Shown here one piece after another: positions 50,519 to 55,824 of a stretch of DNA of 64,000 bases (position 1 is its first letter; every line of letters begins with the position of its first letter). The stretch is from Levilactobacillus lindianensis (GTDB taxonomy: Bacteria; Bacillota; Bacilli; Lactobacillales; Lactobacillaceae): contig NZ_RHOD01000003.1 in assembly GCF_003946095.1 (NCBI RefSeq), positions 62,001-126,000 on the forward strand. The letters run 5' to 3'. Both the position numbers and the translations under genes were made by a program. The notes under the pieces are model-generated. The model saw only the letters and a list, made by a program, of their open reading frames with translations. It made no database searches and had not been told where the DNA came from.

Positions 50519-51073
50519 TTAATATTGGTGTTTCTGGGCAACGTCTCGCATGAGGTGCCAAGCCTTGTACAACGCGAAGAAGACACTTTCAACGATAAGA
50601 AAGCCCCAGGAATCTAAGCTGGGCGCGCCCCAAAAGGTTGGAATTAAAATTAGAACAATCACGACGCCAATTAAAGTTGACTTGATCTGACCTGCGGAAT
50701 AGGCAGCAGGCTTAGTCAAGAAGGGATACAAGATGATCCCGAGCATACTGACAATGGCTAGTACCTTAAGGAACCAAGCTAGACGAATCGTTAATAGAAA
50801 CAGGCTGATGCCAATGACAAGGCCGTTGCGAATTAAACGATGGCTGGTCTTTTCTGGTTGCGGCCGTTGGGCTTGTGCCATGAAGGCCTGAAGTGTCGTA
50901 GCGTTAACCTTATAGATTGTTGCGAGTCGCGGAATCATGGCCGGTGTGGGAGTCATGAGATTGATTTCCCATAAGATCACGGTCAGCGATGAAACTCCCA
51001 AACTTCTGGCGGCTTCTTGCCGTGTTAATCCGCGATTGCGACGCACCGATTTTAGAATCTTTCCCAAATCCAT
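50519..51073 (-). CDS. XRE-type HTH protein with membrane helices, 184 aa
   Basis: Residues 1-62 form an XRE helix-turn-helix: LGKILKSVRRNRGLTRQEAARSLGVSSLTVILWE, followed by a helical stretch and then four hydrophobic segments in the C-terminal two-thirds. A membrane-bound regulator of this layout could couple envelope signals to DNA. ATG 51073 is favoured over an upstream one because GAGGATAATCGGT gives a ribosome site. It lies 13 bases after the next membrane protein gene, so these two are an operon. Confidence 0.8.
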   Translation of the reverse strand: MDLGKILKSVRRNRGLTRQEAARSLGVSSLTVILWEINLMTPTPAMIPRLATIYKVNATTLQAFMAQAQRPQPEKTSHRLIRNGLVIGISLFLLTIRLAWFLKVLAIVSMLGIILYPFLTKPAAYSAGQIKSTLIGVVIVLILIPTFWGAPSLDSWGFLIVESVFFALYKAWHLMRDVAQKHQY

Positions 51074-51086
51074 ACCGATTATCCTC

Positions 51087-51344
51087 TTAGTCTTGCTTAT
51101 CTTCACGGTAGGTATTGCGAATGATATTAACAATTAAGGTTGGCACCATGAGTAAAGTGTAGATGATAGCCAGCCCATTAATTAAAAGCGTCCACCAGGT
51201 AGTTTCCCCGAAAACCCACACGATGGCCTCTAAAATCGCAACTGGCCAGAACGATAAGACCAGTAGTTGCCCCCATTTGGAATAACGCTGAGTGGCTTTA
51301 TTGTAGCCTAATAGATGCAGCCAATTTCCCCGATTAATTTTCAT
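51087..51344 (-). CDS. Small membrane protein, 85 aa
   Basis: Two membrane helices (about residues 27-44 and 49-72) flanked by charged ends. AAAGGGG precedes the ATG. Lies just upstream of the XRE protein gene and may bind it or be controlled by it. I know no family. Confidence 0.7.
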   Translation of the reverse strand: MKINRGNWLHLLGYNKATQRYSKWGQLLVLSFWPVAILEAIVWVFGETTWWTLLINGLAIIYTLLMVPTLIVNIIRNTYREDKQD

Positions 51345-51436: not shown

Positions 51437-52354
51437 TTAGCTGGGATAATGAATTTTAAAGTAGGCGGCCATCGTTTGGAGGTGGTGTTCCAGACTGAGA
51501 CGTTTAACCACGCCGAGCCCAGGAAAGTGTTGGCTGGCGTGATAGTCGGCCAATGCCAAAGCCGCGGGTGTTTGCACAGCAGCTGGTTGTGCAGGTAACC
51601 AGGACGCGAGTTTGGCGACGGCCTGAAAGAATTTTTCCTTGGGATGGCGGAAATCCTCGCGATCGTCGGAGACGAATCGATGGATTCGGAGTTGGTCACC
51701 GGCAAAGTAGGTTAGGTGGAGGGTCACGGCGCGAGCCGGATAGCCGTGTTCACTGTAGTGGGCGCCACCGATTGTATAGTCACTGATACTGGTATAACCG
51801 TCGAGGCGGGCTTGCTGCCAGTCTTCGCTGAAGAAGCCATCTGTGATATCAGCATAACTGCGATCGTGTTCAGGCACCCAGGCATGGTCAAACAGACTAC
51901 CGCTAGGTCGCGTCAGTAGCCGGCGAATACGGGCCTCCGGTGGCACGAGTAAGTGGGTGGGGGCGTCCAGCCAACCAGCATGGCTAGCCGCAAGGAGTTC
52001 GTCATATTGGCGCGCAACCAGTAATGTTTGATGATCCGGTGTTGCCTGCAAGTCCTCGGGGATGATGGTGGGCGTTAAAATGTGACCCACGATGAGATTG
52101 GAATTGTCGGCATAGCGTCGCCAATCATAAAGTTTTTGCTGAGTGAGGGCGTAGTCGCTGACGGTGGGATTAGCAATGACGACCAGTGGTTGATCGTGCT
52201 CAACAAAGGCCGCGACCGTTTGGGGCAAGGTCCGAATGTCGCGGACGGGTTCAATGATGGGGATAATGTTCCGTGGTAGAACGTGTTGCTGGGCAATGTT
52301 CTTTAAGGCTAGTAGGTCATACTGCCGACCCCGAAAGTAAGGAAAGTAGATCAT
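51437..52354 (-). CDS. sce7725/Beta-family-like protein, 305 aa
   Basis: Begins MIYFPYFRGRQYDLLALKNIAQ and continues NIIPIIEPVRDIRTLPQTVAA, the layout of sce7725-type proteins, which are TIM-barrel-like and of unknown role. The middle (LIVGHILTPTIIPEDL) and SISDYTIGGAHYSEHGYPARAVTLHLTY are consistent. The start overlaps the stop of the upstream nuclease-like gene by 4 bases (ATGA), so it is translated with it. The relatives often pair with nuclease-fold proteins. The function is unknown. Confidence 0.6.
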   Translation of the reverse strand: MIYFPYFRGRQYDLLALKNIAQQHVLPRNIIPIIEPVRDIRTLPQTVAAFVEHDQPLVVIANPTVSDYALTQQKLYDWRRYADNSNLIVGHILTPTIIPEDLQATPDHQTLLVARQYDELLAASHAGWLDAPTHLLVPPEARIRRLLTRPSGSLFDHAWVPEHDRSYADITDGFFSEDWQQARLDGYTSISDYTIGGAHYSEHGYPARAVTLHLTYFAGDQLRIHRFVSDDREDFRHPKEKFFQAVAKLASWLPAQPAAVQTPAALALADYHASQHFPGLGVVKRLSLEHHLQTMAAYFKIHYPS

Positions 52355-53043
52355 AATCGTTGCTCCTTGAGTTGTTGCTGGAGATCGTGGCGTTCTAAGT
52401 TTAGAGCATCAATTTCACTCTGCAGAGCCGTCACCGCTGCCGATTGGGTATCGTCGATGAACTGGTCGTAGAAGTTGGCTTCCGGATCGTAGACGTCATA
52501 GTGTTGGTGGCGTTTTTTCAGTTCCTGATAGAGGCGCTCGGTACTGTATTGTTTGAGTCCGGTGGCCATTTGTTTGGCCTTGCCGACTTCTCGGGCCTGT
52601 GAGGCAATGAACCGGGTGGTTAGTTCGGATTCAGAAACCTGCAGTTCTTGGCGACGAGGTGGACGGACAACGGTCAGATAGCCCGGCGTGCTGGGAGTTT
52701 CCGTGGCGGTTGCAAGCATTTCCTTATTGAAAGGTCGGTAAATCAGCACCCCAATATGGGCGGGGATCTCGTCAGCGACTGCCTGATAGAGCTTTAATGG
52801 CAAAACAAAATAGTTGTAGTGGCCCACAAAGGAGAGCTTGGCCTTGGAGTGAAAGTCGGATTTGGTGACCTTGAGTTCATAACACCGCCACTCAATTTCG
52901 CCACTCGACAGTTCTTGATAACTCAGGGTATCCACGATGCCTTGATCGGCGGGCATCGTGACCTCTTCGACGGCAAAGGCCCCTGCTTCACGACAATAGG
53001 CGTAGAGGGTGTTTTCTAGTTCAAGTGTTAATTTTGTTTTCAT
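52351..53043 (-). CDS. PD-(D/E)XK nuclease-fold protein, MmcB-like, 230 aa
   Basis: Residues 26-80 have the layout of a restriction-endonuclease fold: EEVTMPADQGIVDTLSY with Asp38, then CYELKVTKSDFHSK with the ELK (E56-x-K58) motif, then SFVGHYNYFVLP, matching the MmcB/DUF group of DNA repair-like proteins. The C-terminal 70 residues are a long helix (QSEIDALNLERHDLQQQLKEQ), likely coiled coil. The start overlaps the helicase gene stop (TGATG) and its stop overlaps the sce7725-like start. A DNA-acting partner to the helicase is the inference. Confidence 0.6.
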   Translation of the reverse strand: MKTKLTLELENTLYAYCREAGAFAVEEVTMPADQGIVDTLSYQELSSGEIEWRCYELKVTKSDFHSKAKLSFVGHYNYFVLPLKLYQAVADEIPAHIGVLIYRPFNKEMLATATETPSTPGYLTVVRPPRRQELQVSESELTTRFIASQAREVGKAKQMATGLKQYSTERLYQELKKRHQHYDVYDPEANFYDQFIDDTQSAAVTALQSEIDALNLERHDLQQQLKEQRL

Positions 53044-55403
53044 CAGGATACCTCCGGATGCCAGAAATTATGAACGGCACTGGTGAGTTGTTCCGGTCGG
53101 TAGAGCCGCTGGAAGTGTTGCCAGTGTTGGGGATACAGGTGTGTGTAGCGGGGACTGCTGAAACGCTGATCCATGAGGAGAATGATGCCGACGTCTTTGG
53201 ACCCGCGAATCAGTCGACCCGCAGCTTGGAAGACGTTGTTCAGACCGGGTAGTTGATAGGCAAACGCGAAACCTTGATGTGACTGTTGGTCGAAGTAATC
53301 CCGTAGCAAGTCCGTTTCAGGATTGATACCCGGGAGTCCCACGCTGACGACGCCGACGCCAATCAGACGGTCGGCCTTGAGATCAATTCCTTCCGCGAAG
53401 ATCCCACCCAAGAGGGCAAACCCGACCAGCGTGGTTTGCGGATTGGCGGTGAAGCTTGCCAAAAAGGCGGCTCGATCGGCTTCGGCCATCTGCGCCTGTT
53501 GGACGACCGTTTTTAAGTGCGGGTACGCCATCGAAAAGGCTTGGCTGACGTCGAGAAGGTAGTGGTAGGACGGCAGAAAGATCAGATAGTTTCCCGTCTT
53601 ACCATCGACTAAGGTCTTGATGGCCAAGAGAATATTGGCGAGGTTGGCGTCACGTTGTTTATAGGTTGTTTGAATGTAGTTTGTGACAAAGATGGCCTGA
53701 TGCTGGGGCTTGAACGGTGAGGTAAGTTGATAGGCCAGGCTATCCTCGTCACCGCCCAGGACGCGTTGATAATAGTCCATGGGTGAGAGGGTGGCTGAGA
53801 AGAGAACTGCCCCGTGACCCAGAGCCAGACTATCTGACAGGAAAGCACTGGGATCGAGACAGAGCTGTTTGAGCGTGATGTTGCCATCTGCGATGGTGAG
53901 TCGCATACGGTAGGTGTCGTCGTAGTAGTCGCCGATCCGTTGATAGCTGATAGCCGCAAAATAGTAATCCAGAATAGCTTGGGTAAAAGGGGTGTGCGGT
54001 TGGTCGACGAGCCAGTCATGAATGGCCTCCACCAGTCGGCTGAGATCGTGGTCGATTGCCTCGGGAGGTGTTAGGAAGGTACTGTCATCGCGGCCGTCGG
54101 CCAGGAGTGGGGCCGCAATATCACTAAAGGTGGCCCGGAGATCTTGTAGGCGCCGGCGTAGCTTCGGCGTGGCTTGATCCAGGTCACGACTTTGTTCGAT
54201 GAGCTGATCGAGGGGCCGTGTGGTCAACTCAGCGGAGTACATATCGCGCGACCGGCTGACCAAGTTGTGGGCCTCATCGATCAGAAAGAAGTTGTCGGGA
54301 TCCTCAGTCGTGAAGAACCGTTGTAAGTGGACTTGGGGATCGAAGAGGTAGTTGTAGTCGCCAATGATGACATCACAAAAGAGGCTTGCATCCAATTGAA
54401 ATTCAAAGGGATCAAGGGTGTGTTTGCGGGCGTAAGCTTCAATCACGGGGCGAGTCAGCTGATCGTTATTTTGAATCAGATCTAAGAGAGCTGGCTTTAG
54501 TCGATCGTAATAGCCTAACATGTAAGGATTTTCTTCGGGTAACAGGTCGGCCTCTTCGGGAAAGGTGATCTTGGCCTTGGCCGTCAGGGTGATACTCTTG
54601 AGCAATAGGCCTTGAGAGGCCATGAGATCGAGGGCTTCTTCGGCGACGGATCGGGTACTCTGTTTGGCAGTCAGATAGAAGATTCGCTGGATGATGCCTT
54701 CACCAATGGCTTTAATCGTGGGGAAAAGTGTTGAAATGGTTTTCCCAGTCCCGGTTGGTGCTTCGGCGAAGAGGCGTTTGTTGGTGAGAATCGTCTTGTA
54801 AACGGCGACGGCAAGCTCGCGTTGCCCCGGTCGATACTGGCCGAAGGGGAAGGTGAGCTGCTGAATGGTGGGGTCGCGACGATCACGGAGGTCCGCTCGG
54901 AATTTGAGCCAGGTAACGTACTCGTCGATGACTTTGTCAAAAAACGCCTGGGCTTCCTGTCGCGTGATGGTCTGATCCGTTTGTGTGGTGGTTTCCGTGT
55001 TCGTTTGAAAGTAGGTCAGGGTGAGCTTGACCTGATCCAAGTCGGGCTCGTGGTCCATCAAGAGGTAAGCGTAAAGCTTAACTTGTCCCCAATAAAGGGT
55101 GAGAGTGTTCGTGCTAAGGTTGGCAAAGACAGTTTCCGAGGTCTTGATTTCCTCGATACTGGCCTGGTCACCCGTTAACGTCACGCCGTCTGCGCTTCCA
55201 TGAAGCAGGTACTCATTGTCGTTGAGCGTGAGCGTCTTATCCAGATAGTATTCCTTCTGGTAGTCGGCACCACGCTGTTTCTGTAGGCGACGATGGATGC
55301 GGGCCCCTAACAATGCCGTATTTTGACTGTTGCTGGTCGTGCCCAGGTCGCCGGTTCGTAAAGTAAATTCGATTAATTCGCGTACCCCTAATTTGATTGG
55401 CAT
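53043..55403 (-). CDS. XPD/DinG-family helicase with N-terminal PD-(D/E)XK nuclease domain, lacking Fe-S cysteines, 786 aa
   Basis: SF2 DNA helicase. An N-terminal RecB/Cas4-like nuclease domain has D72 (HGSADGV) and E85-I-K87 (IEEIKTS). Helicase motifs: APTGTGKT at 215-222, LIDEAHN around 374-380 (DEAH), LFSATLSPMDYYQ and the C-terminal QAAGRLIRGSKDVG. In XPD/DinG relatives four cysteines between motifs I and II bind a [4Fe-4S] cluster; here all are lost (KAKIT, LL, EN, LDPFE; about residues 280-331). One Cys remains at 343. First gene of a coupled operon with two unknown proteins. Confidence 0.92.
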   Translation of the reverse strand: MPIKLGVRELIEFTLRTGDLGTTSNSQNTALLGARIHRRLQKQRGADYQKEYYLDKTLTLNDNEYLLHGSADGVTLTGDQASIEEIKTSETVFANLSTNTLTLYWGQVKLYAYLLMDHEPDLDQVKLTLTYFQTNTETTTQTDQTITRQEAQAFFDKVIDEYVTWLKFRADLRDRRDPTIQQLTFPFGQYRPGQRELAVAVYKTILTNKRLFAEAPTGTGKTISTLFPTIKAIGEGIIQRIFYLTAKQSTRSVAEEALDLMASQGLLLKSITLTAKAKITFPEEADLLPEENPYMLGYYDRLKPALLDLIQNNDQLTRPVIEAYARKHTLDPFEFQLDASLFCDVIIGDYNYLFDPQVHLQRFFTTEDPDNFFLIDEAHNLVSRSRDMYSAELTTRPLDQLIEQSRDLDQATPKLRRRLQDLRATFSDIAAPLLADGRDDSTFLTPPEAIDHDLSRLVEAIHDWLVDQPHTPFTQAILDYYFAAISYQRIGDYYDDTYRMRLTIADGNITLKQLCLDPSAFLSDSLALGHGAVLFSATLSPMDYYQRVLGGDEDSLAYQLTSPFKPQHQAIFVTNYIQTTYKQRDANLANILLAIKTLVDGKTGNYLIFLPSYHYLLDVSQAFSMAYPHLKTVVQQAQMAEADRAAFLASFTANPQTTLVGFALLGGIFAEGIDLKADRLIGVGVVSVGLPGINPETDLLRDYFDQQSHQGFAFAYQLPGLNNVFQAAGRLIRGSKDVGIILLMDQRFSSPRYTHLYPQHWQHFQRLYRPEQLTSAVHNFWHPEVS

Positions 55404-55557
55404 CCGATCGCCACCTCCTTTTGCTGATAATCAGCATACCACATTTTGCGGTCTGTTTGAACGCGTGTTCGTGATTGGTTAGCAGGTGTGAAAAGTGAGT
55501 CGCGGGGATTGGCAAAATCTATGAAATCGCTTACAATAGAGAGCGAGGTGATATTGG

Positions 55558-55824
55558 ATGAAAACAATTGGCTTTCCGCTACACGAAGAAATAACTGAAA
55601 TTGATGAAGCGTCTGCGCTTCAACGGATTTGTCAACGACACACAAGTAAAGCCACGATTAGGGTTCGTGACATCGAAATTAATCCCAGAGAACAAGTTGA
55701 GATGGCAACGCTTAGTCAGTATGGTGGGAAATTCATTCGAATCGTGACGGATGGGCCTGACGAAGCCCAACTGGCGACCGCCATTCATCAGCAGTTCGTC
55801 AAGGACCAGTATTGTGACTACTAA
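55558..55824 (+). CDS. Hypothetical protein with weak HPr-like fold resemblance, 88 aa
   Basis: The C-terminal half aligns without gaps to HPr phosphocarrier over about 40 residues (IRVRDIEINPREQVEMATL and IRIVTDGPDEAQLATAI), but there is no HARP-type active-site histidine, and the position of the regulatory Ser is Glu. If it is an HPr relative it cannot act as a phosphocarrier. The ATG follows GAGGTGATATTGG. It is divergent from the helicase operon and precedes another small gene. Confidence 0.45.
   Translation: MKTIGFPLHEEITEIDEASALQRICQRHTSKATIRVRDIEINPREQVEMATLSQYGGKFIRIVTDGPDEAQLATAIHQQFVKDQYCDY

Follow-up and report, generated by a model that had tools for sequence, protein, structure and literature searches.

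A LexA-type box upstream of a helicase-nuclease, MmcB-like nuclease and sce7725 operon in Levilactobacillus lindianensis: a candidate DNA-repair unit

The window analysed here, a stretch of 64,000 nucleotides (nt) of Levilactobacillus lindianensis DNA (contig NZ_RHOD01000003.1, positions 62,001 to 126,000), carries on its minus strand an operon of three genes, which code for a helicase-nuclease (HEL), an MmcB-like nuclease (MMCB) and a protein of the sce7725 family (SCE) and are preceded by a putative LexA/DinR (SOS) box. The genome belongs to the genus Levilactobacillus, with L. humaensis, L. paucivorans and L. brevis as named close relatives. The genes and their domains are as follows.

53043-55403, minus strand: HEL gene, open reading frame (ORF) of 786 amino acids
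54864-55403, minus strand: HEL residues 1-180, Cas4/RecB-type nuclease domain (H37, D72, E85-x-K87, Q107xxxY111)
53112-54863, minus strand: HEL residues 181-764, helicase core (Walker A 215-222, DEAH 376-379)
52351-53043, minus strand: MMCB gene, ORF of 230 amino acids; nuclease fold at residues about 1-130, followed by a C-terminal long helix/coiled coil
51437-52354, minus strand: SCE gene, ORF of 305 amino acids; sce7725 family (NF033831, 2e-80), predicted (beta/alpha)8 TIM barrel

The operon and its SOS box

As an initial annotation made from the sequence alone had described, the three genes overlap at both junctions, by 1 nt between HEL and MMCB (TGATG) and by 4 nt between MMCB and SCE (ATGA), and because of these overlaps they are probably translationally coupled. 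Its description, in which a motor, two nuclease folds and an uncharacterised partner are encoded in one tightly coupled operon, is borne out by the ORFs, the domain calls and the conservation of the locus. MMCB is present as a single-copy gene in 83 of the 301 sampled genomes of the Lactobacillaceae, and the concern that the trio might not be conserved together has been dispelled by its recurrence in the order HEL, MMCB, SCE in nearly all fetched loci across the family. Among 80 named homologous loci, 73 have a spacing of -4 nt between MMCB and SCE; the junction from HEL to MMCB is overlapping in 70 of 74. The flanks of the operon are conserved within a genus and differ between genera. In one relative (locus L040, genome G003), HEL is split into two ORFs of 376 and 419 amino acids, with MMCB and SCE intact.

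The LexA-type box and the elements around it, the last three of which were read from the sequence, precede HEL as follows.

55458-55471, minus strand: LexA/DinR (SOS) box CGAACACGCGTTCA, differing at one position from CGAACRNRYGTTYG; distance to the HEL start 68 nt
55456-55461, minus strand: putative -35 element (TTCAAA), a weak hexamer overlapping the SOS box
55433-55438, minus strand: putative extended -10 element (TGG TATGCT), 17 nt from the -35 element
55414-55419, minus strand: HEL ribosome-binding site (AGGAGG)

The operon promoter was not picked up by a scan for consensus promoters, and its -35 and -10 elements were read by eye; a -10 element of the form TATGCT or TATGAT recurs in the Levilactobacillus promoters compared. 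The LexA box of Bacillus subtilis and Staphylococcus aureus is CGAACN4GTTCG (PMC9578287). Boxes of the same type are found in the window genome before genes recognised from their sequences as lexA, uvrB, dinB-type and umuC-type polymerases, addB/rexB, parE and tag. The relatives were scored for a box with at most two mismatches to CGAACN4GTTYG within 155 bp upstream, with neighbouring genes as controls. By this measure, 66 of the 80 named operons have a box, compared with 37 of 382 neighbouring genes (Fisher p about 5e-39, a value that overstates independence, as the loci are related); with at most one mismatch allowed, the figures are 58/80 and 14/382. Taken together, the operon is very probably under LexA control, as judged from the sequence.

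The position of the box and its spacer shift between genera. In Levilactobacillus, the box lies at about -66 and overlaps the putative -35 element; the box of Companilactobacillus and Lactiplantibacillus sits immediately before the putative -10 element. The spacer is variable between kept arms; since the loci of this comparison were chosen by their box arms, the invariance of the arms is partly by construction, and only the spacer and the flanks are informative. Three apparently negative Levilactobacillus loci have the box farther upstream, about 325-694 nt from HEL rather than about 66 (L251, L252 and L253), possibly with an insertion between promoter and gene. In Secundilactobacillus (L048, L049, L061-L067 and L070), the operon is kept and the box is gone in nearly all of the genus. 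No paper listing the operon in a LexA regulon was found in the open-licence part of the literature, to which all literature searches reported here refer.

Several neighbouring features are recorded for completeness. A divergent gene for an HPr-like protein of 88 amino acids (55558-55824) shares the intergenic region holding the SOS box, and co-regulation is possible. On the operon strand, the next genes downstream (50519-51344) are an overlapping pair coding for a helix-turn-helix regulator with a membrane tail and a small membrane protein, and this pair did not cluster with genes of the relatives' loci compared. SOS-type boxes of the window genome also occur at four loci with genes that are not classically SOS (L149, L150, L152 and L159), namely those of a TrmK-like methyltransferase, parE, a doubly boxed gene of unknown role, and a secreted or membrane protein.

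The three proteins

HEL is an XPD/DinG-type helicase with Helicase_C_2 (PF13307, 5e-36) and DEAD_2 domains in Pfam, and its helicase motifs together with these domains place it in the XPD/Rad3 type. The N-terminal domain carries the H, D, E-x-K and QxxxY signature of the Cas4/RecB-type nucleases, and the PD-(D/E)XK residues H37, D72, E85-x-K87 and Q107xxxY111 are invariant among 35 aligned homologues. The protein is homologous from end to end with PDB entry 9kqh ('DNA 5'-3' helicase', E 1.2e-149), a chain of which has alanine at the position matching D72, and this replacement suggests that the depositors had inactivated its nuclease. The four positions of the XPD-type iron-sulfur (Fe-S) cysteines are occupied in HEL by T280, L287, N292 and D331, and the four-cysteine motif is absent; residues 280-331 correspond to window positions 54411-54566. 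At each of these positions, the cysteine is present in 20-21 of 21 HEL homologues from outside the family. The cysteines are lost in most lactobacilli examined and kept at two loci, L045 and L112. An assignment of HEL as CasDinG of a type IV CRISPR system was considered and rejected, as the curated Csf4 model gives 18.4 of 400 bits and no Csf gene occurs among nine flanking genes.

MMCB is modelled by AlphaFold (pLDDT 89) as a PD-(D/E)XK core with a long C-terminal helix, and E10, D38 and E56-x-K58 are its invariant active-site residues in the alignment. The best PDB match of the model is 3dnx (SPO1766 from Silicibacter pomeroyi; Z 15.0, root-mean-square deviation 3.2 over 142 residues), followed at Z 8.2 by the next one. 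The fold and active site of MMCB agree with this structure, which is presumably of the MmcB/DUF1052 type; a sequence search started from an MmcB-like phage protein did not arrive at 3dnx. Since only three of 37 MMCB relatives touch the Pfam MmcB model, and those weakly (best 8.8e-5), the protein is MmcB-like and not a member of Pfam MmcB. It was also compared with sce7726 (NF033832), to which it shows no NCBIfam match and an hhalign probability of 7.5%, leaving homology unproven though both look like PD-(D/E)XK proteins. Relatives of MMCB are found in Bacillus Herelleviridae phages, one of them annotated as MmcB-like. A scan of viral contigs with MMCB gave no relatives, and neither the MMCB nor the SCE profile matched a sequence in the PDB. 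The contig OR848224.1 ('Listeria phage LM 4-14-1', locus L031) has the gene order amidase, amino-acid ABC transporter, MMCB, SCE, GNAT; it is probably not from a Listeria phage, because this order matches that in Enterococcus faecium DNA (L348).

The third protein had been called sce7725/Beta-family-like. Its sce7725 assignment stands, with 270.8 bits in NCBIfam NF033831 at a cut-off of 60, while the Beta part falls away, there being no match to Pfam 'Beta protein'. The SCE model (pLDDT 96) is a TIM barrel, and according to the alignment and the secondary structure of the model, the conserved residues R8, E35, N62, D156, D192 and H226 are placed at the C-terminal ends of strands or close to them. 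As the active sites of TIM barrels are usually located there, SCE would appear to be an enzyme. A chemistry borrowed from the tRNA-guanine transglycosylases, which gave the longest alignment (about 235 residues, Z about 9), was left unused, as their Z is tied with those of unrelated barrels. Nfo/UvdE-type TIM-barrel endonucleases are not among the structural matches listed for SCE, which excludes nothing, and the viral structure library yielded a single clear match, to an uncharacterised protein of a Gordonia phage, which is uninformative.

The MMCB-SCE pair and its sister lineage

HEL is the commoner gene in the family (164 versus 83 of 301 genomes for MMCB), and when encoded away from the MMCB-SCE pair it mostly has no SOS box. 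In a phylum-wide sample, HEL homologues likewise stand alone, without MMCB or SCE neighbours and mostly without a box. Conversely, Enterococcaceae and other Lactobacillales have the MMCB-SCE pair without HEL, and 15 of 16 of these loci keep the box; E. faecium carries the pair, in one case on a plasmid. In two Companilactobacillus genomes, HEL is apart from MMCB-SCE and both units are boxed (L328 and L107 in genome G175, L329 and L094 in G288).

A sister operon consists of sce7726, a PD-(D/E)XK-like protein, together with sce7725 and a HEPN/RES-domain protein. Its scattered occurrences are in other Firmicutes, a few Lactobacillales and Proteobacteria, the last including an integrative element of Salmonella (loci L230, L241, L243, L246, L162-L169, L032 and L033), and it has the look of a candidate system for defence or of a toxin system. 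None of 13 sce7726-type operons has a box, compared with 15/16 of the pair-only loci (p 2e-7), and in the SCE tree the MMCB-linked and sce7726-linked kinds separate in one step with 100/99 support. As the pair keeps its box without HEL and the sce7726-type operons have none, we infer that an SOS-regulated MMCB-SCE pair is the core unit and HEL an accessory motor in lactobacilli, which would have added to this core an XPD-type helicase carrying a Cas4/RecB-type nuclease domain. The SOS box, the core pair with its separable helicase and the lost Fe-S cysteines of HEL are points that go beyond the initial annotation.

Proposed function and relation to known systems

The initial annotation had named DNA repair and anti-phage activity as alternatives; the conserved LexA box favours the former, and the latter has found no direct support. 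Co-location with defence genes, which it had proposed to check, is not seen among the nine flanking genes scanned, the neighbours being housekeeping genes. The trio is most likely a unit for DNA-damage repair that has not been described before, and not a system of phage defence; a LexA-repressed, damage-induced repair operon is the reading favoured here (probability roughly 0.6), because the operon combines SOS control with a DNA helicase and two nuclease domains whose active sites are intact, and has no defence context. Our confidence in a repair role with roughly the parts described below is practically the same.

The proposed scheme is built on the box, the gene overlap, the motifs, the predicted folds and the co-inheritance; we infer induction, complex formation, the substrates and the order of events. 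RecA filaments would trigger self-cleavage of LexA, whereupon HEL, MMCB and SCE would be made together. HEL would unwind or translocate 5'-3' on damaged DNA, its fused Cas4/RecB-type nuclease may trim a single-stranded flap or end, and MMCB would incise beside the replication-blocking lesion. SCE would be a catalytic partner of MMCB, possibly docked via the coiled-coil tail of the latter. By analogy with Caulobacter mmcB, the lesion would in the first place be an interstrand crosslink or a bulky adduct; that gene codes for an SOS-regulated PD-(D/E)XK endonuclease, provides resistance to mitomycin C and cisplatin, and has a proposed role in crosslink removal (PMC9578287).

Several observations weigh against this reading. 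The box is missing in most Secundilactobacillus, in Lapidilactobacillus and in part of Lacticaseibacillus; the window MMCB has no match to Pfam MmcB (PF06319) by sequence; the SCE model gives no specific TIM-barrel chemistry; crosslinks or any other substrate are a guess from analogy; and the operon of the SCE sister lineage, which includes a RES-domain protein, looks closer to defence than to repair.

Within the repair reading, a narrower alternative is a general action on forks or recombination intermediates such as R-loops, D-loops and G-quadruplexes, like that of DinG or FANCJ and without a particular link to crosslinks. This is possible, if clearly the less probable version: HEL belongs to the XPD/DinG/FANCJ superfamily and SOS control is compatible with any role in fork repair, but the Enterococcaceae keep the unit without the helicase, and the closest fold relative of MMCB is presumably of the MmcB type, and the member of that type which has been studied confers resistance to mitomycin C. 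A bolder and rather doubtful extension of the repair reading is that SCE may be an unrecognised DNA-processing enzyme in an obligate complex with the MmcB-fold nuclease, that the SOS-induced MMCB-SCE(-HEL) unit would form a pathway of the Lactobacillales, independent of UvrABC, in which a single operon supplies incision, unwinding and end processing at crosslinks or bulky lesions, and that in the sce7726/RES lineage the sce7725 family would have been recruited for defence.

An SOS-induced system against phages or mobile elements, in which damage caused by phage or plasmid entry would derepress a nuclease complex destroying foreign DNA, is the chief functional rival, though an unlikely one. It would agree with the sister clade of SCE in the sce7726-sce7725-RES operons, whose RES proteins are toxin-like, with the location of one such operon among integrating-conjugative-element genes (L032), with a weak match of sce7726 to the PADLOC model 'cll', with the label 'typeIV_DinG' that PADLOC gives to HEL, and with the MMCB relatives in Bacillus Herelleviridae phages. 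However, the window operon is single-copy and syntenic within genera, has housekeeping neighbours rather than the patchy, mobile or defence-island distribution of such systems, and contains no RES effector; the two SCE lineages are split cleanly by partner (100/99) with the SOS box only in the MmcB-linked one, and HEL falls far short of the curated Csf4 cut-off (18 of 400 bits). Very improbable is an SOS-induced self-destruction, in which the nucleases would degrade the DNA of heavily damaged cells: two nucleases under LexA control would fit it, and SOS-induced toxins are known in bacteria, but the distribution is that of a vertically kept gene set, no cognate inhibitor gene is present, and helicase-nuclease fusions are typical of repair enzymes. 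The least credible proposal, that SCE is a metabolic TIM-barrel enzyme linked only incidentally to the nucleases, draws on structural matches scattered over unrelated metabolic barrels (Z about 9-10) and is opposed by the -4 nt overlap with MMCB in 73/80 loci, the joint presence of the pair in Lactobacillaceae and Enterococcaceae, and the pairing of SCE with a PD-(D/E)XK-like protein in the sister clade too.

The SOS box gives the sce7725 family, itself uncharacterised, a regulatory context and through it a testable role in lactobacilli and enterococci, including E. faecium. MmcB-type repair would gain a possible Gram-positive counterpart, and the loss of the cluster cysteines in HEL offers a natural experiment on an XPD-family helicase without them. 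The papers searched contain only incidental mentions of sce7725 and sce7726; neither the SOS-controlled combination nor the fixed link between sce7725 and an MmcB-like nuclease was found there, though the parts are of known kinds.

A comparison with known systems shows how these parts are related. Like Caulobacter MmcB, the window MMCB is a PD-(D/E)XK nuclease apparently under LexA control, but its score stays below the Pfam MmcB cut-off, its tail is a long coiled coil, and its gene is coupled to those of an sce7725 protein and a helicase. HEL shares its end-to-end architecture and its nuclease and helicase motifs with the stand-alone XPD-type helicases of Firmicutes represented by 9kqh, which differ from it in having kept the Fe-S cysteines that HEL has lost, in lacking MMCB and SCE neighbours and in being mostly unboxed. 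With DinG and the CasDinG of type IV CRISPR systems, HEL has its helicase superfamily in common, as reflected in a match to PADLOC model PDLC01439 at 1.9e-111; annotation tools would label it as a type IV CRISPR component, which calls for caution. Finally, the operon resembles the sce7726-sce7725-RES operons in placing an sce7725 protein (NF033831) beside a PD-(D/E)XK-like protein, whereas those operons have sce7726 as partner, a RES protein and no box (0/13), and the window operon has MMCB, the box and an SCE of a separate clade.

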